A stretch of DNA of 64,000 nt. Source: Craspedostauros australis. Lineage: Eukaryota; Bacillariophyta; Bacillariophyceae; Mastogloiales; Achnanthaceae. Shown here piece by piece: positions 890 through 30,443 of the stretch (position 1 is its first letter; each line of letters opens with the position of its first letter). Position numbers and translations under genes: made by a program. Below the pieces are notes generated by a model. It saw nothing but the letters and a program-made list of their open reading frames with translations. It did not search any database and was not told where the DNA came from. Location: NCBI GenBank assembly GCA_026770025.1, contig JAMXDE010000003.1, positions 2,170,001 through 2,234,000 on the forward strand, read 5' to 3'.

Positions 890-3800
890 ATGCTCCCCTC
901 TGCCGCTGCCAAGGCCCTCCCCAACGATGCTAACCCCTCCCCCAGTAAGAAACCGCGTTCTGCTCGCCTTGCATCTGCTCCTCCCTTCGATTCGAAGGGG
1001 TTCCTGCTGCCTACTGCAGAGCAACTGTTGCCTGACAAGCCGTCTGCTACATTGAGGAAGCCGAGCACCATCACGCAAGTGATCGATGTGAAGCCGATGC
1101 ATGCAGCAGATGGCAGCCTCGTCCCGAACAGTACACATGCGCATGCTCGCGAGCTGCACGTGTTCGTACACATCCACGATGGCAACGGAGGTGTCTACAA
1201 CAACTCCAACGTCAGGGTGCGCTCGGAAGGACGAGGTGTCGGCGATGGTACGTTGGTGAGCGTTATCGTGAACGCGCCACCCCCGCCTGCTGCAGCTGAT
1301 GTTGCACCACCTGTCGAGCCTGCCCCACTGGCGAGGCTCCCTCGTCGCTGCAATGCTGTTGTTGCTGGTGGCTATGCAGACACCTCCAACGACAGCGACA
1401 CCACCTACGAGGACAACGACAGGGGGAAACGAACGCGCGCCAGCAGGAACAGGAGAGGAGGTCAGTTTGGGCATGACCCGGAAGAGGGGGGAAATTGGAG
1501 GCGCCCTGCTGTGATTCGTGTGATGGAGGAGCTCACGGATCACTTCGATGTGAACGTGTTCAATTCCATGCCTCCCACAGGATTCGTGCTAGGTGGCAAT
1601 TGCGACAGGCGCACATGGTGGAATGCAACACGTGTGTGGGTCACTGTGGCAACTGCGCTCTGGGGTGTCTTGCTCCCTCAGGAGGCTCCGCCAACTCGCC
1701 AGATGCAACAGGTGGTGGCGTTTGTCCATGCTCGCGTGGACCTCCCGCCTCCTGCACTTGGTGCGAACCTGTACACCCTATGTGTGAGGGGAGAAAAGAC
1801 ACTTGCTAACGCTGCCAGAGCTGTGCTCGCTGCATCTACATCATTCACTAACAGCTCCGCAATCCTGTCTCGTCACGTGAAGACTCTTCCAGAGGAACAA
1901 CGCAATCGTGTCGAGCCCACGCGTGCCACTATTACTAGGAGTCAGCTAACAACATTGCGACGTGGGTTTGATATGTTTAGCCGTGGCGAGGTCATCCCAT
2001 CGCGAGTTCTCCAGTATCGCGTGCCTGCCTGTGACCTGTCTGGTGTGGTGTCCTTCCTCATGACAACAACAACATACAAGCCAGGGTTGAGTCACATGGT
2101 ACAGTATGGTGGAGTTGAATTCGAGAATGTCCCGGTGTTCGATCGTGGTAGCACCTCCATCAAACAACTATTGGACATGTACTCATCTACGACTAACAAT
2201 CCAGTGGGAAGGCCCGCGTTCATCCTCATGACAAACCTCCTCACACGCAAAAGCAAGATCAAGACGGGCCTTTCTTCCTTCGAGAGTTACTTCTGGATGG
2301 CAACACAGAAGCTCAAACAGGCAATTTCGCGCCTAGTGGACCTGCTGAAGGCTAAGTATGATGCCGATGGGGAGGGAAAAAACGATGCCAATGACGAGAG
2401 CGACAACGACGACGAGCCGGATGACGTCATTGCGCAGCATGTGCGCACTGCCGATTCTCTGTTGCATGCGCTCGAACTGCTTGTCGTGTTTGTCAAATGG
2501 GAATTCACCGCGTCGCACATGCAGCTTCGTTGTGACGACCCCATGCATTCGGCCGCGTTCGCGCTCACCACCAAAAAGGACAAGAAGAAGGCAACAACCA
2601 CATCAACCAACCAACGCAAAGCCCACACCAACAAGCACAAGTGCAAGAAGAACACCACCATCACAAATGACATTTCTCCCACCACCTCAAACAAACAACC
2701 ACGTAAAGTATGCAACAGATGTGGCGCAGCAATGCGATTTGTGGATGATCGTTTTGTCCCTTTTGTCACTATGCTTAAGGACAGCGAACTCACAGAACAC
2801 AAGGACGAGTTGCAGTCAATGCTTGTGGCAGCGCCGGGATTCGCTGATGAAATTGTTAACTACATGGCTCACAAAGTGCGTGCAAAGGTTCAATTCAGAC
2901 AAATCGACATTTATAAATCCACGACCAACAACAATGGCAAAAGAGCCTATGTGGTACTCGACCATAAGCAAAAAATTCTACCGACAGGCCAAGGCGAAGC
3001 CCAACAAGAATATTGGGGGAAGAAGGGAATGTCACTGCTTGGGGCGATGGTCATCACGTGTCACAATGATATTTTTACTTATCAGTTCATTGACATTGTG
3101 GTTGGTGGAAGACCGACACAAGACACTCTTCAAGTTGGTGGACTACTTGACATTGTGCAAAAAAAGGTCAAAGAAATTCTCCCATCCGTGACTGAAATCA
3201 TCCTACAGAGCAATAACGCTTGTTGCTTCGCCAGTCACGAGCACATCCCACTGATCACATCGGTACTCAACAAGAACCTTGCGACACGAAAAGCAGCCAA
3301 AATCATCGCGTGGATTTACACGGAGGCCCAAACCGGTAAGAGCATGCTGGACACCCACTTTGCGTTCATCACCCGTGTACTGCGAAAATACGTGCAAAGT
3401 GGCAAGGACATCAAGACCGCCCGCCAACTCTACGAAGCACTGAAAGCTGGTAGCATCGCGGGGACAACAACGGTATTGGTCAATGCACGAAACCTCCAAG
3501 GCCACATCACGACATTGCCAGGCGCACCAAAAAGACGATTCCGAGCGTCTGGACAACAGGTACGTCAGACTCATGAGGTGAAGTATGATGATGGCCAGGC
3601 GCGGCTGGTGGCTGCATCTGGCATCACGGAAGACGTCGTGGTGAAGACCACCGAATGGGATGGCTGGATCATCAATGAGGTGGGTGTCATCGAGGACCGA
3701 ACGTTCACGTCCGACAAGCCGGCAATTACGTCCGAATCATTCAGGAAGACGGACAAGACGCGAAAACTCGGTCGCACAGCGGCAGAGAGCAAGGGGCTGG

Positions 3801-4414
3801 TGTTCGGCAAAGCCCTCGAAGACGGACATGAACATCTTCCATGTGATCACACCACGGCGCTACAAGACCAAACCGCGGAAACACAACACCCACCACTCGC
3901 TGTGCCAGGCTGGGCTAGCAAAACCACGCGCAAACCAGCGAAACTACCAGACTACATCGCGACGAAATTGAAGGACATCAGTGAAGCGTCCGCGAAGGAC
4001 CCGAAAAACAGACCGTCCGAACACGAAGCACACGAGCAATTGATGGACGACAACAGGACCAAAACTGACTGGTACGTACAACTGCACGCAAACCCCATGC
4101 GCGTCAAAGCGTCGCTGTCGGCAGCGTACAACACCAAACAACGCAAGGAAAAGAAGGAGGCTGCCCTCATCAAGACGGAAACCACCACCAACCCAACAGG
4201 CAACACAACAGCAACAGCATCTGCAATTGTGGCGACCCACGATGCGCCAGCTGAAACACAGGAGGAACGAAGAGAGGAGGAGTTGCAGAGAGAAGAAGAG
4301 GAGCTGGATCATCAGATGTGGTGTGATGCTGACACACTGAAGGCCAACACAGAAAGTGAGGCTGTGTTGGATGATGGGACGGAAAATTGTGATGGGCACG
4401 TACTGCCGCGATAA
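890..4414 (+). CDS. DDE-type transposase-like protein, possibly inactive
   Basis: This 1174-residue frame is the only long one inside the inverted-repeat element, so it is most likely the transposase that would cut and rejoin the element ends in the nucleus. The N-terminal 200 residues are low-complexity and basic. A C/H-rich stretch at about 525-620 (RCDDPMH then CNRCG) could bind zinc. The putative catalytic core lies at about 685-830: VLDH (D691), a QSxNAxCF motif at 773-780, then TEAQTGKSMLDTHFA (E812, D821). The second acidic position, usually SDN in related transposases as I remember them, here reads SNN (N775), so catalysis may be lost. The frame is otherwise intact with no stops. The start is the first ATG after a CA-rich leader. 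Transposase nature is fairly sure from context; the family is not named. Confidence 0.7.
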   Translation: MLPSAAAKALPNDANPSPSKKPRSARLASAPPFDSKGFLLPTAEQLLPDKPSATLRKPSTITQVIDVKPMHAADGSLVPNSTHAHARELHVFVHIHDGNGGVYNNSNVRVRSEGRGVGDGTLVSVIVNAPPPPAAADVAPPVEPAPLARLPRRCNAVVAGGYADTSNDSDTTYEDNDRGKRTRASRNRRGGQFGHDPEEGGNWRRPAVIRVMEELTDHFDVNVFNSMPPTGFVLGGNCDRRTWWNATRVWVTVATALWGVLLPQEAPPTRQMQQVVAFVHARVDLPPPALGANLYTLCVRGEKTLANAARAVLAASTSFTNSSAILSRHVKTLPEEQRNRVEPTRATITRSQLTTLRRGFDMFSRGEVIPSRVLQYRVPACDLSGVVSFLMTTTTYKPGLSHMVQYGGVEFENVPVFDRGSTSIKQLLDMYSSTTNNPVGRPAFILMTNLLTRKSKIKTGLSSFESYFWMATQKLKQAISRLVDLLKAKYDADGEGKNDANDESDNDDEPDDVIAQHVRTADSLLHALELLVVFVKWEFTASHMQLRCDDPMHSAAFALTTKKDKKKATTTSTNQRKAHTNKHKCKKNTTITNDISPTTSNKQPRKVCNRCGAAMRFVDDRFVPFVTMLKDSELTEHKDELQSMLVAAPGFADEIVNYMAHKVRAKVQFRQIDIYKSTTNNNGKRAYVVLDHKQKILPTGQGEAQQEYWGKKGMSLLGAMVITCHNDIFTYQFIDIVVGGRPTQDTLQVGGLLDIVQKKVKEILPSVTEIILQSNNACCFASHEHIPLITSVLNKNLATRKAAKIIAWIYTEAQTGKSMLDTHFAFITRVLRKYVQSGKDIKTARQLYEALKAGSIAGTTTVLVNARNLQGHITTLPGAPKRRFRASGQQVRQTHEVKYDDGQARLVAASGITEDVVVKTTEWDGWIINEVGVIEDRTFTSDKPAITSESFRKTDKTRKLGRTAAESKGLVFGKALEDGHEHLPCDHTTALQDQTAETQHPPLAVPGWASKTTRKPAKLPDYIATKLKDISEASAKDPKNRPSEHEAHEQLMDDNRTKTDWYVQLHANPMRVKASLSAAYNTKQRKEKKEAALIKTETTTNPTGNTTATASAIVATHDAPAETQEERREEELQREEEELDHQMWCDADTLKANTESEAVLDDGTENCDGHVLPR

Positions 4415-6075
4415 CACTAGTTGTGGAGTTTTGTGGGTGGCAGACCATGCTACTACAACGAGTCTAGAGGCCATCCAAAAACCACCCAAATATCTGCTTG
4501 TCATGCTATATCTCAACAACACATCGTTTAAAATTAAATCTAAACATTGCATTCAGACGCCTGACTATCGTTTAATCATAATATCGAAGTTAAATTACAA
4601 TAGAAAATATTTTGGAAGTCATGTTGGTTTGCTGTGTTTGTGTGGTGGATTCGGAAAAAATGTTGATGCCACAATGTTGCCCTCCAATGAGCACACATGA
4701 TCATCATCATCATCCTTGTATTTCAGCAAACTGTGCATACCATTCGCTCTGCATACCCCCCAGCTATCGACTCCATGAAGGCTGGCCACAGACATTGGCT
4801 CTGCATGCAGCAATGCAGCCACACACTGAAACAGAGCAATTGCCAAAAAACGTGTTCAATCCGGATGTGGTATGGATACGGATCCATACCTCATCCATAC
4901 AATCCTGTCAGCCCCTCCAAGCGCTCCTCGTGCATTCCAACACTCCATGGTGACACGCGGATGCATCCAGAATGGGATGGGAGTGCCTGGCCGACGTGAT
5001 ACACCTCCACATGATGATGTGGTGGTGCATTTTTTGGTCTCATGAACAACAACCATTCTGCAGATATGGTCAGCTGCAGCCTCTTCCAGACAACTTGAGC
5101 GGAGCATACTTCGCGATGACCATCTTCAGCCAATGTCGCACCCATCTTGTATGGGTGGCTTGACGATTGAGGGGCGTCTTCCCATCGCCCCTCACCGCCA
5201 AAGCCACGCGACTGGTGCCAGGCGAGCCCCAACCAAAACTCCTCAAAACCACCTTTTCCTCCGCGCGGACACCTTCCCGGTGCTCCGCGAGCCTCAAACT
5301 TCGAAGGCGCCTTCTTCGTGCCCCTCTTGAGGCATCCTGCGCATCCATAGGCGCTGATATGGCCAGTGTGTGCCACACATAGGCCAAAACCAACGAGCCG
5401 ATTTGGAGCCAAATTGTTGATCGTATTTCTGGGGCCTACGACGGCCCCAAATCAACCCCTCTTCCTGCCTCCGTTCGTCCACCCACCAAACGTTGCGTGG
5501 AGGTGACGGCGATATGCTTGAATCTTGAATTGGCCGGCTGGTTGTTGCGGCGCCAAGCATACCGTTCGACGGCCATCGTGGTATTTTTTTGGTGTTTGCT
5601 CCACTTCCATGTCGGTGTGTCGAGTTTGCCACTCTCAACCGGCCTCACATGTTGGGGGATGTGGAGATTTACCTCCAATTGTACCGACTGTCCAAAAAGA
5701 CCACGACACAAAACACTCGAGGAGTACCAACTCCACTCAACCACTTCGCCACGACGAAGCAGACCTGATGATGTTGCGCATCGTCATATCATTGGTGTTT
5801 CATGACGAAGTATCCAATTTCGTGACGTCGATGACGGATTGGACAAGCACACGGTGTAAGTAACGTAAACGATAATACACCGCTTCCCCCAACATTCTAC
5901 AACTAGTGCTATCGTGGATGGACTGTTGGATGGTCTCATCCGAACACCTGAAAAAGAGACTAAACAATTCAAAATCGGAACAACCTTGCTGAAACGAAGA
6001 ACAGCAAAGGGTTAAATTGAATCGATGTAGTCGGAAGAAAAAGGCTGAGTCCCTAAAGCAGTCTAAAAATGCGCA
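4415..6075. other. 3' interior of the transposon, no gene recognised
   Basis: The stretch is AT-rich at 4500-4640 and GC-rich at 5160-5470. Several overlapping minus-strand frames of 80-170 codons (4891-5412, 5070-5393, 5294-5638, 5436-5744) compete with each other and show no domain. It could be a decayed passenger gene, a spliced gene I cannot resolve, or spacer. Confidence 0.4.
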
Positions 6076-6241
6076 CATTGACGGGTCCATAAAACTTAAA
6101 ATAGGATCTAACTTAAAAATCTATCGGTTAATTATTTATATGGAGATTACGAGGATTACGAATATGTGCTTTGTTTGGATATCGGAGACAAATGTTATTG
6201 AGTCCCATGACAAAGTGCAGGTCGACTCACTGATCGGGCTC
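6076..6241 (-). repeat. right terminal inverted repeat of the transposon
   Basis: This is the reverse complement of the left end. The outermost 48 bp are identical, and inner similarity reaches about 6076-6100, where the complement of TTTAAGTTTTATGG matches the left repeat at 373-384. Confidence 0.85.
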
Positions 6242-6245
6242 TTAT

Positions 6246-7230
6246 GCTCGCTGGCGTTCCTCAAGTGCGTTCTACTGTTCCACGTGGGCATTGTTGTGCG
6301 CAACGCATGCCGCGCATAAGTGTTGGTGTCTATTGTCACGGTCATGGAATACGCCACCAATATTGGGTCTTTTTCATTTATGTCAAAAAACTGGCATGCG
6401 TGGCCAGGAGCGAAGTGCTCTTTACGTCATTTTGTACCTGTCACTTATGGCATCGCCATCTCTTATTTCGATCACGATCGTTCATGTCAACATAGAGCAG
6501 GTCGTAGAATTTCACATTCCTTGATAGAAGAGAAACAACTTGTTGTATTCCTGCTTTATTGGCGTGCCAAACTGAATGTCGATTCATGTCGCACAGGTCA
6601 CCTCAGACACTTTCCCACCAAACCCATCGCTTCCAATCATCATGTTCTGCACACAAACACAACAGGCCCAGCCTTAGAATGCGTTTGTTTGTGGCGGAAG
6701 TGCGCGAATAGTTGGTTTGGTTCGCATGACTGCCCTGGTCATTTCGGAGAAGCGCCGCCAAGGAACCTGAGTGAATTGGAACCACGAATAGTCATGCGGT
6801 AGTTTGTTTCGAACCCGGGACGCTCCGCCTTTGGTGCTTCCTCCGGAGCCGAAAGCAATCGCCATCTCACCGTTTCAGCACCTCGCAAAGCTTGTCAGGT
6901 CCCTGATGCCGTTTCGGGTTCCATCTCCTCCTTGTTTTGTGCAATACGCATTACAAGCACCCCGTTGCATGGGATAGGCACAATTCTGCGGGCCTGATCG
7001 ACCTGTATCCCGGGATCGGCATCTACTGCGAGTAATATTTCGTCCTTCTCTATTCTCATAAAAAGCCAGAGAACGCGACTCCAAAGCCTTCTCTCACAAT
7101 TCTTCCCATCGGTTCTTCCACATACGAGCACCAACACTTCCAACTGGATCAACCAGCTGATCGACAATCCACCAACTCCAACACAAAAACAAAACAAAAC
7201 AAACAACCACTACCGCTTCTCTTGCCAAAG
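6246..7230. other. intergenic, presumed upstream region of the vWA-protein gene
   Basis: I see no gene. The last 60 bases before the ATG at 7231 are rich in CA and AAC (for example repeated ACAAAACAAAAC), as in the leaders of other genes in this window. A T-arm-like motif on the minus strand near 6809-6822 does not fold into a tRNA. Confidence 0.5.
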
Positions 7231-15900: not shown

Positions 15901-18755
15901 ATGCAAGCCCAACAACAACAACAACAACGACGCGTTCGCAACGCGATGACGCTCACCGTCTGCATCTTCATGATGCTCTTGCAGCAAACTCATGGCCACG
16001 GCTTCATGTTCGACCCTCCGAGCCGCAACTACGTGGCCCACGTCCAGGGCGTCAACCCCAAGGTCGGATCCGAGATCGGCGTGCCTTCCGTCGAGTACTG
16101 TCCGCATTGCCTCAACCGCAGCAACGGCCTTTGCGGTCTGTCTGAACAGCACGGCCAAGACGGAGCCTTCGGCGATTACGACGCGTGGTTGGATTCCACC
16201 CGCCAGCACGTGATGCCATGGATGTCCCAGGCAACCTACATCGAAGGCGATGCCGTCATGATCCAGTCCAACCTCTGGGTGCACCACGGCGGGCACATGG
16301 AGGTTCGTGCGTGTCCCATGGGCCGGCAATCGACGAAGGATTGCATGGAGGATCACAAGCTCACCTTTGTGGAGGATGTCGCATACGGCATGCCAGCTGG
16401 TGAGTAAAGGGCGCAAGTCGTACCTATGCGAAGGCGAAAACCGTTGAAATATTGCGCCTGCCATTATTGCATGTGGGTGGGAATGGACACGCGGAAGGGC
16501 GCGTCGGGTTTCCCATGTCTCTTGGCCACCAACTCGCACCTTGTGTCCTGTTGCATCATTCACATCACGTCTCACACGCTCCACCTTCCGCATGCTTTCC
16601 TTTTCGAACATGCGTCATGGCGCCATCGCGCGACGTCCTTTTCTTCGTCATCGATGGTATTCGTGCGTGCGCCCGGTGACATGAACAACCCTCCGATCGA
16701 GCAGACCCCAACTACCCCGAGCGCGGCTACTACTACGGTGGCGCGCAATGGGATGGCTACGACTTCGCCATGAGCTTCAAGCTTCCGGAAGACTTGGTCG
16801 GAACCGAAGTTCTGCTCCAGTGGCGCTATGTCACTGCCAATTCTTGCACTCCCATTGGATACGCGGACTACTTCGCTTCCAACCCAACCATTCCAAGCAG
16901 CTTCTGGAATAGCGAACTACGATTGTGCCCAGTAGACCTTCCGTGGGATGGCAGTCTTGCCAACGGAGCACCGGAGCAGTTCTTCAACTGCGCCGAAGTC
17001 TCGATCACTCCGAAGTCCTCCACGGTGGACGGCACTGATCCCACCACAACCACCAGCAGCACCACTTCCGTAATCACGACCAATTCAGCGCCAACCACCA
17101 CCACCACCACTGCATCCACTGCAGTCGACGAAACGGGCGACATCAACAATCGTAGTGGCCCGAATCTGATCGCCTTTGTTGGCAACTGGCTGGAATGTCC
17201 GTCCGTGGAACAGTACAGCCAGTACACGCACGTGATGATCTCGTTCGCCGTGAGCTACCGATGGCAACCCGGCAAGAACGCTTGCAGCGCAACCTGCGAG
17301 ATCGAAATGCCGCCGATGTGCACCGGCGCGTCCGCGAACACCTTCGTGAAGGATCTCCAGGACGCTGGCAAGAAGGTCTTGCTGAGCTTTGGCGGTGCTG
17401 GCATGGGAGGGAGCTGGTCAAGCTCGGTGGATGACTGCTGGGAGCACTGCTTCGGCCGAGAGGCCCAGGTCGTGGGCCGCGTGGCGGAGATCGTCCACAC
17501 GCTCGGCCTCGACGGTGTCGACATCGATTACGAGTACTTCTACGAAGACAACCAGCGTAACTCCGGGTTCAACAAAGGCAAGCAGGCGCAGCACTTCATC
17601 ACGCAGCTGACGACGGGACTCCGTGACGCGCTTCCGAAGAACCAGGGGTACCTCATCACCCACACCCCGATGGATATTGACCTTCTCCCAGGCACGGCAT
17701 ATTTCAACATTCTGAGGGACATCAACGACGCCATCGACTTCATCATGCCGCAGTATTACAACGGAATCACAAGACCAATCCTCGACGGCGTGACCGGATT
17801 CCGTCCCGGATATCCATCCACCGGTGAGCATTTCATGGCCATCGCCACGCAGGTGTTCCGCGGTGATACGACCAAGGTGTTGCCAGGATTCTGCAACGGC
17901 GACTGCGCCGGAACAGGTTCGAATGCCAACGGTCCTCAGGCCGCGAAGGTGATGGAGGATCTGCTTGGGTATTTGGGTGGGAGCTGTCCAGGCGGGGCCT
18001 TCTTCTGGGTTGCCACTGACGATGTCGGTGGCGCATGGTCCACCCAAGTGCAGGCGGCCATGTCCAGTGACGACTGGAAAAGGAATTGTGCAGGGCTGGA
18101 AGTCGGAGTCATCACCTCGCCTCCGACCATCTCCGATGACGCCGCGCCAGCAACACGAGGGCCAACCGCATCCCCCGTGTCCATCGAGCAGCCGACACCT
18201 GCAACACCCGTGAACCCTCAATGCCGAAGTTGCACCGGTGGTTCATCCGGAGAGTGTCAGAAGCCCAGTGACGGCCATTGCTGGCCTTACAGACACGCGG
18301 CGACGCGTGAATGCTACACGGGCACCATCGATTGCGGGGTCCAACAGGCGGAACCGGCCGCATCGCCCACCAGCTCGCCCACCGCATCGCCCACTAGCTC
18401 GCCCATCGCATCGCCCACTAGCTCGCCCACCGCATCGCCCACTAGCTCGCCCGTGGACAGCACGCCAATCACGGACCGCCCCACTGGTGCTCCCACAAAA
18501 CAAGCCGATGGCGCCAGCGGCAGTGTTGACGAAGATTTGAATTGCGGCTTGGAGTGGGATCATTGCAACTTGCCCGGCAAGTCATGTTGCACCGATTACG
18601 AATGCATCCAATACGACAGCTACACCTCCATGTGCCGCCCAATCGCAGGGAAGTGTCTTCCAGAAGGAGAGGCGTGTCTTGGCGAACAGCTGGCGTGCTG
18701 CAACGGCTTGGAATGCCAAGGCGACGAATGGTACAAGTTCTGCCAAGAGCCATAG
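15901..18755 (+). CDS. secreted LPMO (AA15-like) fused to a GH18 chitinase, with Cys-rich C-terminal modules
   Basis: Exons 15901-16399 and 16705-18755 join across a 305-bp GTGAGT...CAG intron in phase 1 to give 849 residues; the join reads GMPADPNYPERGYYYGG. A signal peptide (TLTVCIFMMLLQQTHG) leaves His33 as mature N-terminus in HGFMFDPPSRN. His129, in HHGGHMEVRACP, is the second copper-brace histidine. LQWRYVTANSC and FFNCAEVSI close the LPMO. A Thr-rich linker (about 275-310) leads to GH18 (about 319-640) with FVGNW, LLSFGGAG and the catalytic DGVDIDYE (D436 to E443, with E443 the acid). A Cys-rich segment (CRSCTGG...CWPY), an SPTASPTSSP linker and a second Cys-rich domain follow. The enzyme should oxidise and hydrolyse chitin outside the cell, for remodelling or degradation. 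Both active sites look intact. Confidence 0.92.
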
Positions 18756-18845: not shown

Positions 18846-19887
18846 AATGGAATAGACACCGTGCTCCATGTATGGTGCCAGTGACGATTCGGCCTTGCTC
18901 GTACTTCGTTAGCACCCTCCGAGAGCAGTATGCTCCAAGGTGCTTGTCGCAGGTAAGGACCGGAGTCAGCGTGGAAGGAATTTGGGTCACCCCTGATACA
19001 GTAGCCGTTTCATCGCGTCGCCATCGTCACCGTGGAGGCGGCAGATATGAGGCTCTGGTCAGCCATGCGCCAAAGGTTGACTCGCTTGGCGAAGACGTGG
19101 TGGTTGTGCCGAGACAGGCCGATGATGTGAACGAAGCGCGGATCTTGCGGTCTTCGCGTGCGTCGGCCGAGAGAAGCTTCTTGGGATCTCTATCCGGAAT
19201 GAGGCGGCTGGGATCGGTCCACTTGAGCACTTCGCTCCTTTTGGGTCCACTCTACCATACGAGCACGGTTCCGTGAGCAACGGTTTTCCTTCGTAGGTGC
19301 TCCTTGCTGCCTTGAGCGAGTTGAAAACGCGACTTCGTCATCAATCCGAGGGAGGGCATTCGTCGAGGACTGGGGACGAGTTGAGCGAAGAACTTCAATG
19401 CATTGGCCATGGGACTATCGATTGACATGGTGGGTGATCTTCATCTTTGTTTGCGCTCCGCTGCGTTGCGTCTGGTCGGAGGTCCCTTGTTGATGTCGGA
19501 TGTTGCCGATGCTCATTCTTTTGTTTGGATTTGAGTGGTCAAACTTGTCGAGGACTTCGGAGTATCTTTGATTGCGTGCGGAGCGTGGTGAACCAATCAA
19601 AACTCTGCGTAACCATGACTTGGGCGTTGTGTGGTATCCACAAAAAACGTGGTCGTGTACCATGGCACAACCTCGGCAAGCAAACAAGCCTCTTGGTACG
19701 TCTCTGTCTCTCCCTCGCTCCACCAATACGAGTACAGAGGGACGTGAGGATGAAGTATCCACCCTCGCATAGTACTGAAAGGCACTACGGTTTCGCTTTT
19801 GACAAGTGAAAACGGAATTTTGCGCCTCTCGAAGCATGTCTGCACAAACAGCAACGTCGTTGGCAATGGTACACCACCGCCCAGTCA
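18846..19887. other. intergenic; possible broken small gene on the minus strand
   Basis: On the minus strand an ATG at 19410 opens 52 codons with a mitochondrial-presequence look (FFAQLVPSPRR, then LMTKSRFQLAQGSKEHLRRK) ending at a stop at 19252. Another frame at about 19027-19230 continues with protein-like composition (LKWTDPSRLIPDRDPKKL). The two frames do not connect by an obvious intron. This may be a small frameshifted gene or chance; I do not recognise it. Confidence 0.25.
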
Positions 19888-19889
19888 TA

Positions 19890-20636
19890 TCCATAATGAT
19901 TTTGGCCTGGTACTGGCCTACGTAGCTTGCGTCCGGACGCAAATTGGACGCTCAGTTTGCGTCCCCACGCAAATTGGGCCAATTTGCGTCCGGACGCAAG
20001 CGGCGACTCAACGGACTCGCCCAAATACGCTTTATGAGAAGCCGTTTTTTTTTCAAACCCTTTTTCGCTGGCCATCTCGACTCACGACATGACTCATGTC
20101 TTAGTTCTATAATAATCGCTGCAGTTGTGGTAATTGAACAAACAATAATCATGATTCGTGCTCCACCCTCCTTGTTGTGTTACACCGTTGCCAGGATTTT
20201 GGTGTTGTTGTCAGGAGCGTGGTGGATGACATCGAAATCAAAAAGTAAAAGCTCATTACCTCAGATCCCATGACGTCAGAAAAGCAAGACAGGCGCACGG
20301 AAAGGAACCCCTGAGACATGACCAATGACGCCGTGCTGCATCGCGAGGTTTTTTTTTTGAAATCGCCAAATAAGTGAGTTACTCGAAGGAGTCAGAAAAA
20401 AAAACAACCCACTTTCGGGTTTCGGACCGAAATCGGGTTTTTTTTTCTGCAACACGGGACATCGTGGAGGAACATGGGACTTAAGTAGTACAAGTGGTAT
20501 TTTCGGCGAGCTTGCATTTGCGTCCCCACGCAAATTGGCCCAATTTGCGTCCGGACGCAAACTGAGCGTTCAATTTGCGTCCGGACGCAAGCTACGTAGA
20601 GAATGCGTCCGGACGCAAGAAAAACGTCATTATGGA
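19890..20636. mobile_element. short non-autonomous inverted-repeat element, copy 1 (CGT/ACG motif type)
   Basis: A 747-bp element starting TCCATAATGA and ending in its complement TCATTATGGA. TA lies on each side (19888-19889 and 20637-20638), which fits a TA target duplication, though the flanking ATAT is palindromic and blurs the edge. Each end has an inverted repeat of about 110 bp containing dyad motifs of the form TTTGCGTCCGGACGCAAA. There are seven in all: 19926-19943, 19956-19973, 19983-19999, 20517-20534, 20544-20561, 20574-20590 and 20603-20618. The interior has no credible gene. A near-identical body recurs at 29561-30306, which proves a mobile or dispersed repeat. Confidence 0.85.
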
Positions 20637-23600
20637 TATCAACACGACCCGATGCGTCGACTTTGCTTCTTCGACTTCTGCATTCCATACTGTCTTTTCG
20701 CGTCATCGCCCAAACTATTTTGCATTCGGCAATGTGTCTACAGCATGGTTGTTGCCATCGCGGCACCACTTTCTGTAAAAACGTCGGAACCCACCCATGG
20801 CAAGGGCAGACATTGCTTTGCTCGAGAGCGTCGATGGCAGAGAGAACCCACATCAATATTATCCATACTCATACTATTGCCAAAGCCATTTCTAACCTCG
20901 TCGTGGAGAATCAGAAAGTGGTAGCATCGCGTCATGGTCTCTTTCCACACTTGGCAACTACAGCCAACCCCGATGCAGACCTCAGCGAAATCTCGGGGGT
21001 AGGATGGACTCGATGCAAGCTATGGTCCAGGTACCGACTGCTTCAAAGATGCCTGCGATGTCTAGGCCGTTTTCTGGTCTTGGGGCTTTCCAGTTGGTGC
21101 AGAATAGTGTGCAAGGAGCGGCAGGATCATGGCACATGTCGAATACCGTTTTCCGTTGGTCTACGCAATCTTGTGGTACCTATCAGGACATAGGGCCACG
21201 TCTCATCCATCGAACACTGATACACCCTACTCTCTCACCTTCGGTCGCGTAACATGATACCGTGGCACATGGCCTGATGGCCTGTCATGCAGCTGCTTCC
21301 AGTGCATCGATGCCAACCTGGTACGATGTCTTGGGATGGTTGAAGTTGAAATCATCGCGCAAGTTGCAATGAAGAACGACGACGACGACAAAAGACCACC
21401 TGGATCACGTTACCGACATCGCCAAGACAATGCAACGGGAAACACTAGAGCAGAGATGCGGAAGATGATGCAAACAGCGAACGAGATATTATGCTTCAGC
21501 AAGACTCGCTTCTGTTTACTCGTGGTACCCTGCGCAAAACGGTCTCTTCATTCCCGTGTTGGTGTACTACATGGACATGTTGCACAGAAAACGTGCAATC
21601 AGTAGCTGCCCACATGGAGATACATTGTAGAGAGTGCTGTGGCGTCTCCATTGCTGGTGCCTAGGGCAACGTACCGTACCTTACCGGCATTTTTGCAACG
21701 ATGGGTACGTTCATGGCATAACACACGAACTCGATGCGAACATGCACCGTGTACAAGCAGAGCATAAGCGCTACGCATACCAATACGTACCAGACTCTCT
21801 ACCACTCTGTTGGATGGAGATGCTGCTTTTGGGCGGAGGCAACTTTTCGCATTCCACAATGCGAGGCATCGCGAAGAGATCATGGAAGCACCGGCACGAA
21901 AAACCAACCAGACGACAAAGAACGCAAAACGAAGCATCTGTCGTGCTTTGCGTCTGGATACCGATACGTGGTTCGGCGTTGGGAGAGGCGAGAGCAACTG
22001 CGAAGAACAACCCAAGGAAAAGCGGCTTCTCCGGCGCGAAGCGCTCCATGGCGTTGGCGCGCGTACAACGAGGAATGATTCTCCGAGGCTATCGGAGATG
22101 CCGTGGTACTACATACATTCGAAGCCGACCAAAGCTTGGCAGAACAGCCCCATTCCGTTTCCATTGACATCCTCTCTCTGCCGAGGTGCCCTTTGAACAA
22201 AATAGAACAATGTGGTGGGAGAGACCAGACGAATTCCGGCACTGGCGGGCCCACACGATGATGTGTTTGGAACGACTCTGTACCATGGATGTAGTTTGGG
22301 GATCTGTATTTGTGACGGCAACGGCAACGGCAACGGCAACAACGAACGCCTCCACTCTGCCGTTGCTATCACAAATGTAATGAAAAACAGGATTGGACGG
22401 AACCAATCGACCACTTCAGCTACCAATAGGCGCGCGTCTTGGTACGACTCGCAAAGGAAGCGCGCACATCTGATCCTTCGGCAGAATCGGCACTTCAATG
22501 CATGTTGTAAGAACGACTACTCTCCAACCTGCAGTTCTAAATCGATACGCCCGCAACTTCACTCATGCTCGTACACAAGTTGGTGGTTAGGTAGATGGAT
22601 ACGTGTACGCACAAGCGGAGGCCGCAACTTCCAAGCTTTCATCTTGGAGCGGGCATGAGCACGGTTGTTGGCATTGTCAGGTACGTCGCTCTCCAGTTGT
22701 TGTCTGGAATATACTCTACATCATGTAGTCCATGTGGACGTGGTTGGTGTATTCGTGCCATCCGCCTGATTTTGGAGATTGGAGTTGAATTCGTGATCCT
22801 CTCGCAGGTGGCCACAGTGTGAGAGTGCCATATTTTATTTATTTCAAGATGTGAGCATTTTGAGGATGCACGAGACGCGAGGAGACATTGTGGTCGCCGA
22901 CCCACGTCACCCCTCTCGTCGCTCACAACAGGCAGTTTTTCTCCGATCGTCTATTCGCTTGGTCATTTGCACAGAACTTATCTGCGAATGCAACACGGAT
23001 CAATGTCGTGGTGGTGGGTACCAAGGCATTTCGTTGTGCCGTGGTAACTGGAACAAATGAACCCTATTTCTCCGTTGTGCGTTGTCACAAGAGTCACAGC
23101 ATCTACTTCAAGTGAAGCATTATTAAGCGAACAATGAGTGTGGACGAATCGCCAAGGAATGCCGGCCATTTTGTTTATTCGCACAGCGGTATTGGTCCAG
23201 AATTCGCACCAACGGCCGTCGCGACCATTGTTGAAGTGGAATGCTGCGCTGGTACACTCAGTTCTTGTGACCACGCAAACGCGAGCAGACGAGGGGTTTT
23301 CTTTGTACCTGTTACGCCAGCAAGGAACGAAAAATCAGTGGTTGGTGTGACATTCGTGGATGGACATCACGCGTTTGGCCAGGTACCGCTCTCGATTCAT
23401 CACAATCGAGGCTCTGTTCTGCGACTTCGACTTGGGAGGAACGAACAACCGTTGCGCGCACCGTAGGACGCAAGGAATAGTGGACTTTGAATGTTGGAGG
23501 ACATCCGTAAACGCGTAGGCATTCTGCACCGAACAATCACAACGTCACGTGCAACTCCTGATAAAGGTGGAACGAGATTGCTTGGGCAGCAAGCGGCACA

Positions 23601-24112
23601 GGGGCCTTTCTGAAGCACGAGTTGCTGGTTCGCGGACTTGCGTGATCGCCACGATCGTGGGCTCCGCGATTCTCCATCTCCCGCTTTCTACCGACAACCA
23701 CTGGTGTGGCACAATTAGAGGAATGTGGAGTAGTCATCTTCCACCGAACGCGAGGAAAAGACCAGCAGAGTCTCTGTGACCCGGGAGGGATCATACATCA
23801 CACGAGCTACGAGTACAAAGACGAGGATGGTGCACATCAGTGGTGTTGGCAGACGTACGCAGGAGCAATCCGACTCACTCACTTTCTGCGTCCATCTGAA
23901 AGCCACAAACATACCTCCTCCCATTACCTCAACGAAACGATCATCAATAGCACATACTTTCTCGTGCAACTGAACCATCTCACCCATCAGCTTATCACCA
24001 ACCAATCGCCATCAGCATCAGCATCAGCATCAACACCAACACCAACACCAACACCAACGCAGTCGTCCTCATACAATCAACTGCCATACATCAGCAACCC
24101 TGCGTCTTCGAA
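20637..24112. other. long intergenic region
   Basis: No gene is supported in 3.5 kb: open frames are short, overlap on both strands and show no domain. A short GGCAAC-type microsatellite lies at 22315-22340. The last 100 bases before 24113 are a CA-rich leader with CATCAG and CACCAA repeats. Confidence 0.45.
24009..24057 (+). repeat. short tandem repeats in the presumed leader of the HA-domain gene
   Basis: About four copies of CATCAG are followed by about four copies of ACACCA/ACCAAC. They end about 55 bp before the ATG at 24113. Confidence 0.7.
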
Positions 24113-26599
24113 ATGGCAACGGCAAACACAGAAGCAATGACAATGCCAGTCCATCGCCAAGCTCAACGGCAGCAACAGCAACAACTATTTCCGTCTTTGT
24201 TTGTCAACCAAACCAGGGTCGCGAGTAGCACGGTCAAAGTCACCCAGTTGGGACACTCCGCGCTGGACTTCGACGCCATCGACATGAGCGCCAAGGACAC
24301 CGTGAACTTCAGTTATGACGAACACCACAGGGCATCTCTCGTCGACTTTCACCAGCACCCCAGGTCGACAGATTCCGCCACTTTTGGTGAGATTGCGAGT
24401 GTGCCCGCAACGAGCGCCACCGCAGGTTCCGCCCTATCGCCATTCTCCCCGCCCATGCCGGCATCCCCACGCTCATCAACGCGTTTCTCAGGTGGATCCT
24501 CAGCTCAGGCTCCGACTATGTGGCCAAACACACACATACATGTTAACTCAGATCCGAGCATACATGGCTGCATGGCTTCGGGGGTAGGGATGGGTACGAG
24601 CAACACAGAGGCGCTGATGGCATTCAACCCCGATGTCGGACGAGCGAGTCAGTTGCCCTCGAACAGGGCCCCATCGACTATGGTGCAATCGAACACGGTG
24701 ACATCGAACATGATACCATTCCCATCTCCCAACGCGCCTCACGGCGGTGCGGACATCTCGCCCATGGGTCCCACTTTGGGCAGTCATACTGAGATTCACA
24801 GAGATCGTGGTATGCATACGGCGGTGATCCCAGCTACAAACACGAACCAAACCACACGAGAGCAAATGGATATCGGCAGTGCACCAAGGCAGGCATTCGA
24901 CTGGCTATTGCAGCCCATTCAAGAATGTAACACATGCCAGAATCACAACTCTCACCAAACGTGCACCATGCAAAATGACTTCGCCTGTCACCTGAACTGT
25001 CACGACCTCGAGCCTCTGCCCTTTTCGCCCTCTCACGACCTCGATACTGATTCTGATCAACAGAGGCATGATGCTACCCACTCGTTTCAATCCGAGACGA
25101 CAGCGAACACACTTGGCGCATCATCGGCCCATCCCTTCGAATTCCTCCTCCCAACCTGCGAGAGCCGCAGCCACAGCCACAGCCACAACAGCAGCAGCAG
25201 CAGCAGTCATAGTCATATCCATCGCCAGAGCACTCCCGGCGGAACGGCCGGTGTGGCGAATGATATGCAGCCCCACTCGCCACCAACTTGCTTCAACAAA
25301 CGAACCCCAATGTCACCCTTCGACATGTCGCAGACCGGGGACTTGATCGCTGCGACTGTTTCAACCTGCTCCACGCAGGGGCCTCCACAAGCCTCTGATG
25401 AGATCTCGTCTTTCCAGCGTGGATTAGGAAACGACATGGACACCAATAATATCGGCGATCATGGCGCCATTTCCACCCAACAGTACGTATCACCATTCGA
25501 TATCATCATCGATGATGACAGAAGCACTTCTACAAAACGCAGAACTTCGTCACGTGCTCCATGCTCCGCATCCCTTCCAGAGCAAGCGGCATCCAAGCGG
25601 CGCCGGATCTCACCATCTCCAATTCTACAGCAGCGACCAATTCTGTTGGAGATGTTGGCTTCCATCGATTTTCCGTCCCTGATCTTGCCCCAATGGGTTG
25701 GTACGGAACAACTCGACAAGCCAAGCCAGATCCAGGAATACGCCAGTCTGAAGGGCGACTGCGATGCCGACACTGACACACACGACGATCTTCTCGGACA
25801 AGACTATGGCGCGGCTGCGGCTGAATGCGCTTCTGGTGTCGATCATCTCAAGAATGGTCACGTCAAGGATGACCGCCACGGCACAACCAATGCAAATGCC
25901 ACCGGGGCATGCCTTGTCACCGGCAATGTTGAAGACGGCAACGATCAGCTCTGCGGCACAAATCAATTCACTCAATGCGGTCGAACCAAACTCGACGACA
26001 TCACCGACGACGCCACCGACAGCACCTCCAACAGCAGCAACAGCCACGAAAAGTCTCAGTCGCCATCACCGTCATCATCACCATCTCGACTGCAGCCCCA
26101 ATCGTATCTACCCGCACAAAGGCAAGCGCGGTGCAAGCAAGAAACAAGGTGGAATACGCGATATACTGAGCTGTACCAGTTCCGCGAGAAATACGGGCAC
26201 TGCTCCGTCCCCCACTGCTACGATGACAACATCCAGCTCGCACAGTGGGTTAAGCGGCAGCGCAACCAATACAAGCTCAAAGCAGATGGCCGCCATTCCA
26301 CCCTCACCGCAGATCGCGAGGCGGCGCTGGATTCTATCGGCTTCGTATGGGACAGCCACTATGCGCTCTGGGAGGAGAGGTTCCAAGACCTGCTCAAGTA
26401 CAAGGAAGAGCATGGGCATTGCAATGTCCCAGCCCGATACACGGTCAACCGCCTCCTTGCCATTTGGGTGAAGTGCCAACGGAGGCAGTGCAAACTTCTG
26501 CGATCTAGAAAACGCAGCAACATGACCGAGGAACGGATCGATCGGTTAGACGCCGTTGGTTTCTGCTGGCACATCCGGAACGTAAAACAAGCTGAATAG
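24113..26599 (+). CDS. nuclear-type protein with two C-terminal helicase-associated (HA) repeats, paralogue 1
   Basis: Intronless frame of 828 residues starting MATANTEAMTMPVHRQ. About 670 residues are Ser/Thr/His/Gln-rich and probably disordered, with a poly-Ser/His tract near 350. Two conserved islands stand out: QAFDWLLQPIQE (about 262) and AATVSTCS (about 415). A basic stretch SKRRRIS may be a nuclear signal. The C-terminus holds two tandem HA repeats: first at about 678-745 (WNTRYTELYQFREKYGHCSV ... LAQWVKRQRNQYK), second at about 752-825 (WEERFQDLLKYKEEHGHCNV ... WVKCQRRQ). No helicase motifs occur. HA repeats without a helicase are common in diatoms; DNA binding is inferred. The paralogue at 62041-64000 shares the islands and both repeats. 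Confidence 0.88.
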   Translation: MATANTEAMTMPVHRQAQRQQQQQLFPSLFVNQTRVASSTVKVTQLGHSALDFDAIDMSAKDTVNFSYDEHHRASLVDFHQHPRSTDSATFGEIASVPATSATAGSALSPFSPPMPASPRSSTRFSGGSSAQAPTMWPNTHIHVNSDPSIHGCMASGVGMGTSNTEALMAFNPDVGRASQLPSNRAPSTMVQSNTVTSNMIPFPSPNAPHGGADISPMGPTLGSHTEIHRDRGMHTAVIPATNTNQTTREQMDIGSAPRQAFDWLLQPIQECNTCQNHNSHQTCTMQNDFACHLNCHDLEPLPFSPSHDLDTDSDQQRHDATHSFQSETTANTLGASSAHPFEFLLPTCESRSHSHSHNSSSSSSHSHIHRQSTPGGTAGVANDMQPHSPPTCFNKRTPMSPFDMSQTGDLIAATVSTCSTQGPPQASDEISSFQRGLGNDMDTNNIGDHGAISTQQYVSPFDIIIDDDRSTSTKRRTSSRAPCSASLPEQAASKRRRISPSPILQQRPILLEMLASIDFPSLILPQWVGTEQLDKPSQIQEYASLKGDCDADTDTHDDLLGQDYGAAAAECASGVDHLKNGHVKDDRHGTTNANATGACLVTGNVEDGNDQLCGTNQFTQCGRTKLDDITDDATDSTSNSSNSHEKSQSPSPSSSPSRLQPQSYLPAQRQARCKQETRWNTRYTELYQFREKYGHCSVPHCYDDNIQLAQWVKRQRNQYKLKADGRHSTLTADREAALDSIGFVWDSHYALWEERFQDLLKYKEEHGHCNVPARYTVNRLLAIWVKCQRRQCKLLRSRKRSNMTEERIDRLDAVGFCWHIRNVKQAE

Positions 26600-28743
26600 T
26601 CAGCTGGACATGAAACCAAAAGAAGTCCACGCCCACCATGGCGAAACAGCCTATGACAGCATCATCCGTACTAACAAATGAAATCATCGATGAATTAAAT
26701 GATTTGAAACTGCAAATGCATCTATGTTTACTCTCCTCGACTTCTCTTGATCATGCAAGTACATCTGGAAGCGAAGGCAGATGTTGTGTCCCCCGCTACT
26801 TTGATGCCTTGTGTTTCTATGTATGTATATACTTCCATGGCTGAAGATACGATGGACGGCTGAGCACTTCCACCGAGCTCTTTTCACTCTGCTCTCCAAG
26901 CACACCTGTCAATGTGACAGCGACCAGTGGTCAGCTGCACCACTGTTCCAACATGGCACGAACAACACATGCCAGGAGGACAGCAGCATAACACAAGATA
27001 AAATGATATGAATCTAGCGCGTGGAACAGCCAGGGCAAACTCCCATGAGATGCATGTGAAGTTGCACCGTTGCACACGATGGCAACGGAATTGCAGGCTT
27101 GGTGCATTGTATTGTATTCTATCTCGTACTCGGAATGAAGCTCCAGCTCGGAATAGGATACCACACAAGTATATACTCTGGAGTACATGCATATATGCAC
27201 CGGCATGGGAAAGTACCGTTGCTCAGAGAGGATGGAACAGTACGTGATGCACAGACCTCCATCTTTGCTCTCTTCAAAGTTGCAGTCCCAAGGTGTCCTT
27301 TTGAAAACAGTTCATTTGCTCTCCGAAACGTGTCATGAGGACACAAGACTCACGAGGAGAAGCGTGAATTGAGAACATAAAAAGACTAAAATTGATTGTT
27401 TCGAAAATGTGTGTTGTGAAATGACGGACAGACGCCGGTTTCGCCAACTGCGAGCCATGCTGCGACATCCCCTTTCTGGGTCCATACCCTTACACCTGGT
27501 GTTGGTCCTACTGCCGCCCTCCGTGGCAATGGCCATGAAGATGTCAACAACAACCACTCTATTCCCTACAGAAGAAGATTGGTTGCGATTATCGATCGAT
27601 TACTGCCGATTGGTGTTTCCTTACTCCCTTGTCTGCACGGGTGGTGAGCTTGCCATAGTTGACGATGCTTTGCGCTGCCATTGATCGATGACGCATTGGA
27701 ATCGGCACCGAGCGGCTTGTTCTATGTGAGACCGAAAAGAAGAGCGCTCATTGCATAGAAGCTATCACATTGCGCAAGCCGTACTCTCCGACCCCCCATC
27801 CCCTGTCGACCTCACATGCCAATAGATACGTTGACCGCAATCGCAAGAGTTGCTTGTGCTATCGCCTCCACAAACACTATTCAATACAGCAACGCCTGAC
27901 CAAGTGCAGACACACACGCATTCCAGTCAGAAAACCACATCATGAACAGATCACTGATCCTTCATGATGAACTGGAAAGGCATCATTGAACAAGCACACT
28001 ACTATCCATACTGGTGCAGTCCGCTTGTCGTTTGCTGATCACTGTTGACCATGCAATTATTATGTATCAAAATTCTGTTGTGTTTCTATTGCTGCTGCAA
28101 TATCACTCTCGTTCGAGGAGCGATCGGTATTCCATGCTGCGGGAGAAGCCTACAATAGCTCCCGTCTGTCAGTATCCTCTTCAGCAGGAGAAGCTGCACT
28201 ATCGGCATTCAAGGTTGTACAAGCAGTGATCGTCAGCGTTCAGGCGCTCATTAACATCCGGAGTTGTCTGCTTTGATCGTTTTCTATCTGTCTGCTCCGC
28301 ATTCTCTGTCTCTCTGACTCACTCGCTGACTCACTCTCGCACGCACACACCCGTACACCGAAATGGCTCTGTTCAGCAAGAGTTGTGTCGCAGAATAAAG
28401 TCTAGAGAATATCCACAGCTGGGGCAGCATGTGTCATGTGGAGACCTCGAACTCCTCGGACCAAAGTGGAGGTTGAGCTGTACGCACTTTCCTCTTCCGT
28501 CTTTCCTCCAGCACCGATCCCGGCCAAGTCGATTGTTCTCTGCGATGATCCCGCTCCGAAATTGGATGACGTGGTTGGCATCGACAACTCGAAATGAGCC
28601 AGCAGAATATCAATTGTGGTGCGAGGCTCGTTCGCCTCCATAAATGTGAAGTTTGGCGATCGTGCAGCTCCCGATTCGTGAAAGTCAAGAAGTTTCCTTT
28701 CCTAACGAACTCGCGCGCTTGTCGAAGCGACGACGACGACGAT
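26600..28743. other. intergenic region
   Basis: No gene is supported. A plus-strand frame at about 27421-27684 contains a hydrophobic segment (LHLVLVLLPPSVAMAM) but has no paralogue or domain. CT-rich and CACTCG-type simple sequence lies at 28296-28350. Confidence 0.4.
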
Positions 28744-28866
28744 GACAGACTACGACAGACTACGACAGGCTACGACAGACTACGACAGACTACGACAGAC
28801 TACGACAGACTACGACAGACTACGACAGACTACGACAGACTACGACAGACTACGACAGACTACGAC
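28744..28866 (+). repeat. 10-bp minisatellite, unit GACAGACTAC, about 12 copies
   Basis: Twelve near-perfect head-to-tail copies, with one variant unit (GACAGGCTAC, the third). It is flanked by a GAC/GAT-rich run at 28729-28743. Confidence 0.95.
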
Positions 28867-29028
28867 TGCGTGGAAACGTATTGGCAACAAGATCGGAATG
28901 ATCTCGCTCAAGGCGGACAGGTACTCTTCTTTGGGGGTATTGTTTGGTCAAAGATGCGTTGCTAATGGAATGTGTGCTGCACCACGCTGTGTTCTGCGGC
29001 CACGAGGGTCGCTTCCTCTCTCCAAGTA

Positions 29029-29076
29029 CTCGTGCTTGTGCTCGTGCTTGTGCTCGTGCTTGTACTCGTCCTTGTG
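29029..29076 (+). repeat. 12-bp tandem repeat, unit CTCGTGCTTGTG, about 4 copies
   Basis: Four head-to-tail copies; the last is slightly diverged (CTCGTCCTTGTG). Confidence 0.9.
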
Positions 29077-29560
29077 CAGCAGATGCACCACCAAACTGCT
29101 TCTGTGACACAAAACCTGGTGCCAATTGTTCGTGTGCAAAAGTGTTTGATCGTTCGCACGTTCGCTGCCAAGACCACCCAGCCGTTCGTTCGCGCGACAA
29201 GTTCTGCACAACTGCACCATCTCAGGCACGGAAGAAGACACAAGGAACATCCGAGAAGTCTCCAGATGTGTCGTTGGTTTGGTCAACCGACCGACAATCA
29301 GCCGGTGTCGAAATCACGTGCCACCTTCTGGCAAGTGCCGACTTCGTTATTATTTCGCATGGGGAGCTTCAAGATCACGACACGAGTTGCAGTACTGAAG
29401 TACTACACGCACATAAAACAGCAACGAAAGCAGCAACGAAAGAAGCAACCGCAATAGGCTCAGCAGAAACGATCGACGCAAGTATCCATCGTAACAGCAC
29501 GAATCAAGATATTTGGAAGCATCGTGAATACCAGGCCATACCAATCCAAACCAAGCCATA

Positions 29561-30306
29561 TCCATAATGATTTTGGCCTGGTACTGGCCTACGTGGCTTG
29601 TCTCCCCAGGCAAATTGGAGGTGCAATTTGTCTCCACAGGCAAATTGGGGTCCATTTGTCTCCACAGACAAACTGCGACTCAACGGACTAGCCCAAATAC
29701 GCTTTACGAGAAGTCGTTTTTTTTCAAACCCTTTTTCGCTGGCCAGGTCGACTCACGACATGCCTCATGTGTTAAATTTATAATAATCGTTGCAGTTGTG
29801 GGAATTGAACAAACAATGATCATGCGTCGTGCTCCACCCTCCTTGTTGTGTTACACCGTTGCCAGGATTTTGGTGTTGTTGTCAGGAGCGTGGTGGATGA
29901 CATCGAAATCAAAAAGTAAAAGCTCATTACCTTAGATCCCATGACGTCAGAAAAGCAAGACAGGCGCACGGAAAGGAACCCCTGAGACATGACCAATGAC
30001 GCCGTGCTGCATCGCGACGTTTTTTTATTTTATCGCCAAATAAATGAGTTACTCGAAGGAGTCAGAAAAAAAAACAACCCACTTTCGGGTTTCGGACCGA
30101 AATGGGTGTTTTTTTTTTGCAACACGGGACATCGTGGAGGAATGTGGGACTTAAGTAGTACGTTGCCATTTTCGGCGACCTTCCGTTTGTCTCCACAGGC
30201 AAATGGGGGTCAATTTGTCTGTGGAGGCAAATTGAGACTTCAATTTGCCTGTGGAGACAAGCTACGTAGAGTTTGTCTCCACAGACATGAAAACCCTCAT
30301 TATGGA
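29561..30306. mobile_element. short non-autonomous inverted-repeat element, copy 2 (TCT/AGA motif type)
   Basis: A 746-bp second copy in the same orientation as 19890-20636, with the same TCCATAATGA ends and TA on each side (29559-29560 and 30307-30308). Positions 29827-30018 match 20156-20347 with one difference in 192 by eye. The seven end-proximal dyads lie at the same places but read TTTGTCTCCACAGACAAA and close variants: 29597-29614, 29627-29644, 29655-29672, 30186-30203, 30214-30231, 30244-30260 and 30272-30289. It has no coding capacity. The CAA repeat starts 380 bp beyond its right end. Confidence 0.85.
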
Positions 30307-30443
30307 TATCAAGCAACATCAGCATCAGCGCATCAGCGTCAGGGTGACTTCGGAAAACTCATCCTCCCACCTGGAAAGGAGCGCCTCGTTGAACCGAGAA
30401 GTACTCGCTCCAAGCACAAGCTTACATCGACGCCAATTGCAGC

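Follow-up and report, generated by a model that had tools for sequence, protein, structure and literature searches.

Matched end dyads and transposase C-terminal types in two classes of a transposon family from the diatom Craspedostauros australis

Background

PiggyBac, Kolobok and ISL2EU are the described transposon groups closest to two short elements that lie in a 64,000-nucleotide (nt) stretch of the genome of the diatom Craspedostauros australis (assembly GCA_026770025.1, contig JAMXDE010000003.1, positions 2,170,001 to 2,234,000; hereafter the window). PiggyBac elements have CC...GG termini, and the YqaJ exonuclease, a nuclease relevant to ISL2EU, is a relative of lambda exonuclease. The C-terminal domain of the piggyBac transposase is described as recognizing TGCGT/ACGCA and as binding a 19-bp palindromic end repeat as a dimer (PMC8086355, PMC7351741). 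Kolobok elements, which have been recorded from diatoms, are described as having TTAA duplications and termini of the form 5'-RR...YY-3', and in their lineage KolobokE a PD-(D/E)xK lambda-exonuclease-like nuclease follows downstream of a DDD/E transposase (PMC9587614). In ISL2EU, a member of the PHIS superfamily, the transposase is associated with a YqaJ exonuclease encoded in a separate open reading frame (ORF), the target is AT-rich with 2-bp AT duplications, and the terminal inverted repeats usually start with GG (PMC4482050). That transposon proteins and DNA motifs evolve together is already a known idea from the VANDAL elements of Arabidopsis, in which a protein and a short repeated motif do so with subfamily-specific motif types; the protein, VANC, is an anti-silencing factor, and its motifs are described as spreading by tandem repeat formation in non-coding regions (PMC5735166).

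The two window elements, copy 1 and copy 2, are short non-autonomous DNA transposons with CC...GG termini and ATAT flanks, each bearing seven 18-bp dyads near its ends. The dyads are of two kinds, which define a G-class (half-site TTTGCGT; copy 1) and a T-class (half-site TTTGYCT; copy 2). We consider it probable that the copies are passengers of two specificity classes of one cut-and-paste family, whose transposase reads the dyads with its C-terminal region and acts on the outer tips with its core, and in which recombination would reshuffle the rest while only matched modules persist. More tentatively, the family might represent an undescribed superfamily, marked by ATAT flanks, CC...GG termini and a protein that joins a DDE core, a lambda-exonuclease-like nuclease and a dyad-reading Cys/His-rich domain, with end specificity evolving by cassette exchange.

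PiggyBac elements resemble this family in their Cys-rich C-terminal transposase domain and in palindromic subterminal repeats near the tips, and the G-class dyad contains TGCGT...ACGCA; the differences are the ATAT flanks, as against TTAA, and the lambda-exonuclease-like part found here. Single-sequence scans gave no match to piggyBac (DDE_Tnp_1_7) in Pfam and no piggyBac match in PDB, which leaves room for a remote link, and piggyBac offers the precedent for the proposed reading of dyads by a C-terminal dimer. The likeness to KolobokE lies in a transposase with a lambda-exonuclease-like nuclease part, whereas ATAT and CC...GG replace TTAA and 5'-RR...YY-3'. With ISL2EU the family shares a nuclease-like part associated with the transposase and an AT-rich target, but here a 4-bp duplication fits (on one informative copy, L008) and the nuclease-like part lies in the same frame as a DRGY motif. 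Judged from these descriptions, the elements fit neither Kolobok nor ISL2EU by flanks and termini, nor piggyBac by flanks. As in VANDAL elements, protein and motif types differ in step between groups; in contrast to them, the motifs are end dyads, in blocks exchanged by recombination. Apart from the VANC papers, a literature search of limited coverage returned nothing on the family or on such an exchange of ends and domains, nor any report of a natural mosaic separating tip and dyad recognition within one genome.

Dyad motifs of the two copies

Both copies start with CCATAATGA, end with TCATTATGG and have ATAT on either side. Their parts, in window coordinates, are:

19887..19890: copy 1 left flanking ATAT, presumed target site duplication
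19891..20635, +: copy 1, short non-autonomous element, G-class (half-site TTTGCGT)
19891..19923, +: copy 1 left outer tip, same in both class consensuses
19926..19943, +: copy 1 motif 1
19956..19973, +: copy 1 motif 2
19983..20000, +: copy 1 motif 3
20007..20486, +: copy 1 body (0 class-fixed differences, 11 polymorphisms common to both classes)
20156..20346, +: copy 1 conserved block of 191 positions, 1 mismatch with copy 2
20517..20534, +: copy 1 motif 4
20544..20561, +: copy 1 motif 5
20574..20591, +: copy 1 motif 6
20602..20619, +: copy 1 motif 7
20627..20635, +: copy 1 right tip TCATTATGG
20636..20639: copy 1 right flanking ATAT
29558..29561: copy 2 left flanking ATAT
29562..30305, +: copy 2, short non-autonomous element, T-class (half-site TTTGYCT)
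29562..29594, +: copy 2 left outer tip
29597..29614, +: copy 2 motif 1
29627..29644, +: copy 2 motif 2
29655..29672, +: copy 2 motif 3
29827..30017, +: copy 2 conserved block of 191 positions, 1 mismatch with copy 1
30186..30203, +: copy 2 motif 4
30214..30231, +: copy 2 motif 5
30244..30261, +: copy 2 motif 6
30272..30289, +: copy 2 motif 7
30297..30305, +: copy 2 right tip TCATTATGG
30306..30309: copy 2 right flanking ATAT

A preliminary description of this DNA had placed both copies correctly to within a few bases, had given the shared block as 192 positions, essentially as found here, and had reported that all seven end motifs differ between the copies. Comparison of all seven 18-mers bears this out, with both arms altered at every site. 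The seven motifs all show G to C at offset 5 and C to G at its partner, offset 12; offset 4 is changed (C to T) in six of them and offset 13 (G to A) in three. The half-sites are CGT in copy 1 (14/14) and TCT (9/14) or CCT (5/14) in copy 2; with TTTG-C-G-T in the one and TTTG-Y-C-T in the other, the invariant change is therefore one G to C per half-site. The dyads were also said to be kept or nearly kept within a constant outer TTTG/CAAA. In both copies the dyads are imperfect at several sites, with 5 to 7 of 7 arm positions paired, and the outer bases are altered at some sites (e.g. CTTG, AATG, CATG). The linkers between the motifs also differ between the copies. Set against 500 dinucleotide shuffles per copy, each copy has eight dyads in which 6 or 7 of the 7 arm positions pair (means in the shuffles 1.32 and 1.34, maxima 5 and 6). 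Perfect 7-base arms number three in copy 1 and two in copy 2 (shuffle means 0.07 and 0.08, largest value two in each), so that in copy 2 the number of perfect arms does not by itself exceed the chance maximum.

Two classes of short copies in the genome

Using copy 2 as a query against the genome (74.8 Mb in 90 contigs) we recovered at least 18 places at 94-100%, followed by a gap to 88% and below, and with copy 1 at least 28 places at 91-100%, plus pieces. The 36 full-length short copies that we examined comprise 18 of the G-class and 18 of the T-class, ten of the G-class places lying outside the fetched set. All 36 are uniform in motif class, and each of the 239 classed sites (sites matching neither class being left out) is of its own copy's type. 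Motif type is thus uniform within a copy and forms two discrete classes, a point that the preliminary description had singled out for checking, and the mixed copies that it had considered as a contrary outcome are absent from the fetched set. Independent drift at seven sites, which it had discounted, is ruled out by the two-arm change at every site together with the genome-wide classes. The pattern TTTGTCTNNNNAGRCAAA occurs 99 times in the genome with both strands counted (reversed-pattern control, 0), and 96 of these occurrences fall within T-class elements; two more (one site, on C40) lie 60 bp inside an end relic, and one on C22 is unplaced.

The flanks of the 36 copies are ATAT/ATAT in 34 cases, CTAT/CTAT in one and GTAT/AGAT in one. 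The only clear informative non-ATAT case, L008 on C6, has CTAT on both sides in direct orientation and fits a 4-bp duplication; for four GTAT left tips with CCC, no GTAT right end was found with the pattern used. In one pair, a T-class copy whose body is identical to that of copy 2 (L002, 1498-2253) and a G-class copy (L037, 1501-2223) occupy the same ATAT within paralogous flanks (93.3% identity over 963 bp on the left, 93.9% over 512 bp on the right), as would result from wholesale replacement of a resident element or from two insertions at one site. In two further pairs (L018/L053 and L009/L035) family elements adjoin or sit inside one another's flanking ATAT, which suggests renewed targeting of the duplicated ATAT.

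Separate histories of ends and bodies

We then examined the alignment of the 18 and 18 copies, counting as class-fixed any difference with a majority of at least 90% in each class. There are 20 such differences in element positions 41-120 and 35 in 601-760 (55 columns in total), as against none in the 480 columns of the body (positions 121-600). The body instead holds 11 polymorphisms common to both classes, some of which may be alignment effects in poly-T runs, and the ends hold none. The contrast between ends and body is significant on both counts (Fisher p 1e-29 for class-fixed differences, 0.02 for shared polymorphisms), and the outermost 37 positions, ATAT included, are the same in both class consensuses. 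Since the bodies lack class-fixed differences and share polymorphisms, while whole end blocks including the linkers differ, ends and bodies have different genealogies, and a simple in-place change of the seven sites on a single body, as had been suggested, is not supported. The bodies of T_L015 and G_L030 are mutual nearest relatives across the classes. Recombination of whole ends, named as the main alternative in the preliminary description, is accordingly borne out insofar as end blocks have been exchanged relative to bodies, but in every copy examined the exchanged blocks match each other and, in full-length elements, also the C-terminus of the transposase. By the same token, the differing genealogies that it had envisaged for ends and bodies are present, but simple end swapping is not favoured, the ends being always matched.

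Full-length elements and their transposase

The same ends also enclose long elements. Searching the genome with ORF3 of these elements (715 or 716 residues) gave 63 matches, nine of them full-length and the other 54 relatives or pieces at 25-44%. The full-length relatives of each motif type that the preliminary description had proposed to look for thus exist in both classes: three T-class copies (C20, C28 and C13:228623) and six G-class copies (C24, C16, C62, C2, C7 and C13:991356, or C13b). In all nine, the motif class of the ends equals the C-terminal type.

With exons inferred from open frames, the full-length relatives look as though they encode one multi-exon protein that starts with tandem repeats and continues through a DDE-type catalytic core and a lambda-exonuclease-like part to a Cys/His-rich C-terminal domain bearing a long tail. 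In the two elements read end to end, L061 (C24, 9188 bp, G-class) and L062 (C20, 8796 bp, T-class), exon 1 ends near YITLDDDK and exon 2 holds LFDRGY and, in the same open frame, the lambda-exonuclease-like part. Support from known protein families is thin: DDE_Tnp_1 matched one relative (E 1.1e-4; 22.5 bits vs a cut-off of 23), and TIGR03033 was recovered at E 0.0015 with the C19 relative and 0.018 with P0002, both below its curated cut-off; D626 and E646-x-K648 are conserved in alignment A2. In ORF3, H308, C320, C323, C334, C339, C377 and H382 are invariant in 7/7 aligned sequences (two family members and five relatives). One PDB search gave nothing below E 0.7 and another no match at all, and no homologue was found at E <= 0.001 among 5.8 billion proteins, with about 8,000 candidates scored per search. 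In L061, exon 1 includes about 35 tandem 72-bp units (positions 707-3235; 24 residues each, rich in S/T/P/N/Q) in the N-terminal part of the transposase ORF, and the unit sequence varies between elements. We take Pfam matches of this exon to PLN_propep, Drf_DAD and TMEM51 as chance matches to the repeats, the first two lacking any single passing stretch. The third T-class full-length copy (C13:228623-244690) has about 7 kb extra between the repeats and ORF3, probably an insertion.

Comparison of L061 with L062 in 100-bp windows showed the core (3301-7200) to be 96-100% identical and non-coding sequence away from the ends mostly 96-99%, while identity drops to 76-87% at the ends and to 77-96% at about nt 750-2000 of ORF3. 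We then counted sites that split T from all G and those that split {C7,C13b} from the rest, dropping gapped columns, with the following results (T vs G / {C7,C13b} vs rest):

Core (6/9 full-length copies, 3082 columns; cores of C62, C2 and C13:228623 excluded): 8 / 76
ORF3 1-800: 3 / 38
ORF3 801-2000: 115 / 14
2001-2600 (mostly 3' untranslated region, UTR): 2 / 7
Last 200: 21 / 5
Left end (columns lost to deletions in C62 and C2): 9 / 4

The switch within ORF3 is significant over all sites (p 1e-22) and at synonymous sites only (1 / 17, then 39 / 5; p 6e-10), as is the contrast between the UTR and the right end (p 0.003). Likewise, between C24 and C20 the synonymous divergence (dS) is 0.042 in ORF3 codons 1-255 and 0.184 in codons 258-667, and between C24 and C7 it is 0.166 and 0.050; the ratio of nonsynonymous to synonymous divergence (dN/dS) for C24-C20 is 0.113/0.184 in the C-terminal block vs 0.005/0.042 in codons 1-255. 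The split counts and dS values together indicate one history common to the left end, the right end and the C-terminal region, and a different one for the core and 3' UTR. In trees, branch length shifts likewise between the regions.

The tips add a further dimension. The divergent-core elements C7 and C13b have tips CCCTAATGA...TCATTAGGG together with G-class dyads and a G-type C-terminus, and the other seven full-length copies have tips CCATAATGA...TCATTATGG; CCC tips thus go with the divergent core in 2/2 and CCA tips occur in 7/7 others. The linker GGAGGTGCA, typical of T ends, accompanies G dyads in C13b and L050. Hence the tip follows the core and the dyad follows the C-terminus, while linkers strictly follow neither.

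Of eight distant relatives looked at in the genome, seven carry dyads near their ends with different sequences: TGCGTCCTGACGCA or its near reverse in C14, C4 and C24:514300, AAGTGGACT-N4-AGTCCACTT in C60 and C29, ATGTCCT-N4-AGGACAT in C16:1214543, and CCTTCC...GGAAGG in C19. The eighth, C8 (44%), showed neither a right end nor a perfect dyad in the stretch fetched. The residues following C323 differ among families, and as a shared motif tends to go with close kinship between families, the comparison provides no independent test of recognition. The many divergent transposase relatives in this genome (about 50 places, 25-44% identity), several with end dyads of their own, form a natural panel for motif recognition.

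Proposed explanation and alternatives

In the explanation that we favour, the C-terminal region, probably as a dimer, would bind the 18-bp dyads, and the catalytic core most likely acts on the outer tips. Ends without a matching available C-terminus would not move, so that only matched recombinants would multiply; recombinants with mismatched modules may arise but would not spread, and short passengers would obey the same rule. The class difference may have begun as a specificity change in a diverged lineage, with one invariant G to C per half-site, after which recombination or gene conversion would have made the remaining sequence alike. The preliminary description had proposed a specificity switch in a dyad-binding dimeric protein; the C-terminal Cys/His-rich regions do differ in step with class in 9/9 copies, but the in-place change that it assumed is not retained. 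Its interpretation is partly supported, and specificity change and recombination are both needed: end blocks have been exchanged relative to bodies, but as matched sets in every copy examined.

If the more tentative reading as an undescribed superfamily with cassette exchange is correct, two end blocks and a distant C-terminal domain are kept together by selection while recombination homogenizes the rest, tip and dyad recognition are separable and exchangeable modules, and close elements become mutually isolated through a difference of about one base per half-site. Cases in which a transposon family has split into lines that no longer mobilize one another's passengers, and in which both partners can still be seen, are rare. 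In this genome there are full-length and short elements of both classes, with near-identical cores but different dyads and C-terminal regions, so that the proposed code (TTTGCGT vs TTTGYCT) can be tested directly, as can the candidate residues and the separate modules for tip and dyad. If such elements are clustered by their bodies, the classes relevant to movement go unseen.

Several observations weigh against this explanation. For 34 of the 36 short copies the closest relative of the body belongs to the copy's own class, so bodies are not freely exchanged. The three T-class full-length copies are the only ones and are closely related to one another, so that the 9/9 match reflects few independent lineages, and the tip-core link rests on two core lineages. 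The N-terminal repeats also diverge between C24 and C20 (80-95% per 100-bp window). The class-specific region (58 residues, at about residues 252-712) is far larger than one recognition domain; the C-terminal region resembles zinc fingers weakly (Pfam E 0.013 and up, PDB 1.2 and up), with no significant match to a known DNA-binding family in either database. Finally, approximately unbiased (AU) topology tests did not separate the two histories; as both splits fit one unrooted tree, these tests are uninformative.

Plain end swapping, by which recombination would have put a related lineage's ends on shared bodies without any functional link to transposase specificity, would account for the separate histories of ends and bodies and for linkers that differ together with the motifs. 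We nevertheless regard it as improbable, given that both ends match in 36/36 copies, that a distant third block, the C-terminal coding region, accompanies them in 9/9 with a differently behaving 3' UTR in between, and that linkers are not strictly class-bound, C13b and L050 combining the T-like GGAGGTGCA with G dyads. These T-like linkers count in favour of in-place compensatory evolution, in which the seven sites of one lineage changed singly under selection and the C-terminus evolved fast in the T lineage, as do the change of both arms at 7/7 sites and the higher C24-C20 dN/dS in the C-terminal block than in codons 1-255. To this we give still less credence: synonymous divergence rises fourfold in that block for C24-C20 and falls there for C24-C7, the 11 polymorphisms common to the classes are confined to the body, the linkers differ in addition to the motifs, and the copies fetched include no intermediates with sites of both classes.

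Least probable of all, in our judgement, is that some other region of the transposase (e.g. the N-terminal tandem repeats) or a host protein reads the dyads, the C-terminal match being a by-product of linkage. The divergence of the repeats between C24 and C20 and the length of the class-following C-terminal block would suit such a reader. However, with C24 as a query the 5' 1.3 kb, which includes the first repeats, is at 88% to C7, 86% to C13b and 87-88% to the T copies; C7 and C13b being as distant as the T copies, this region does not follow motif class. The C-terminal block is the only one to do so among the coding regions for which several copies were compared, and a host protein would leave the 9/9 match unexplained.

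Other features of the window

The transposase ORFs P0002, P0003 and P0005 have no tblastn match within the window. Two ORFs in it encode helicase-associated (HA) domains (24113-26599, +, and 62041-63897, -; E 4.6e-39 and 9.8e-40), and a bZIP-like protein lies at 55873-58041, - (E 5.2e-6, slightly under the cut-off). A glycosyl hydrolase family 18 protein is encoded at 16770-18755, + (E 5.9e-12).

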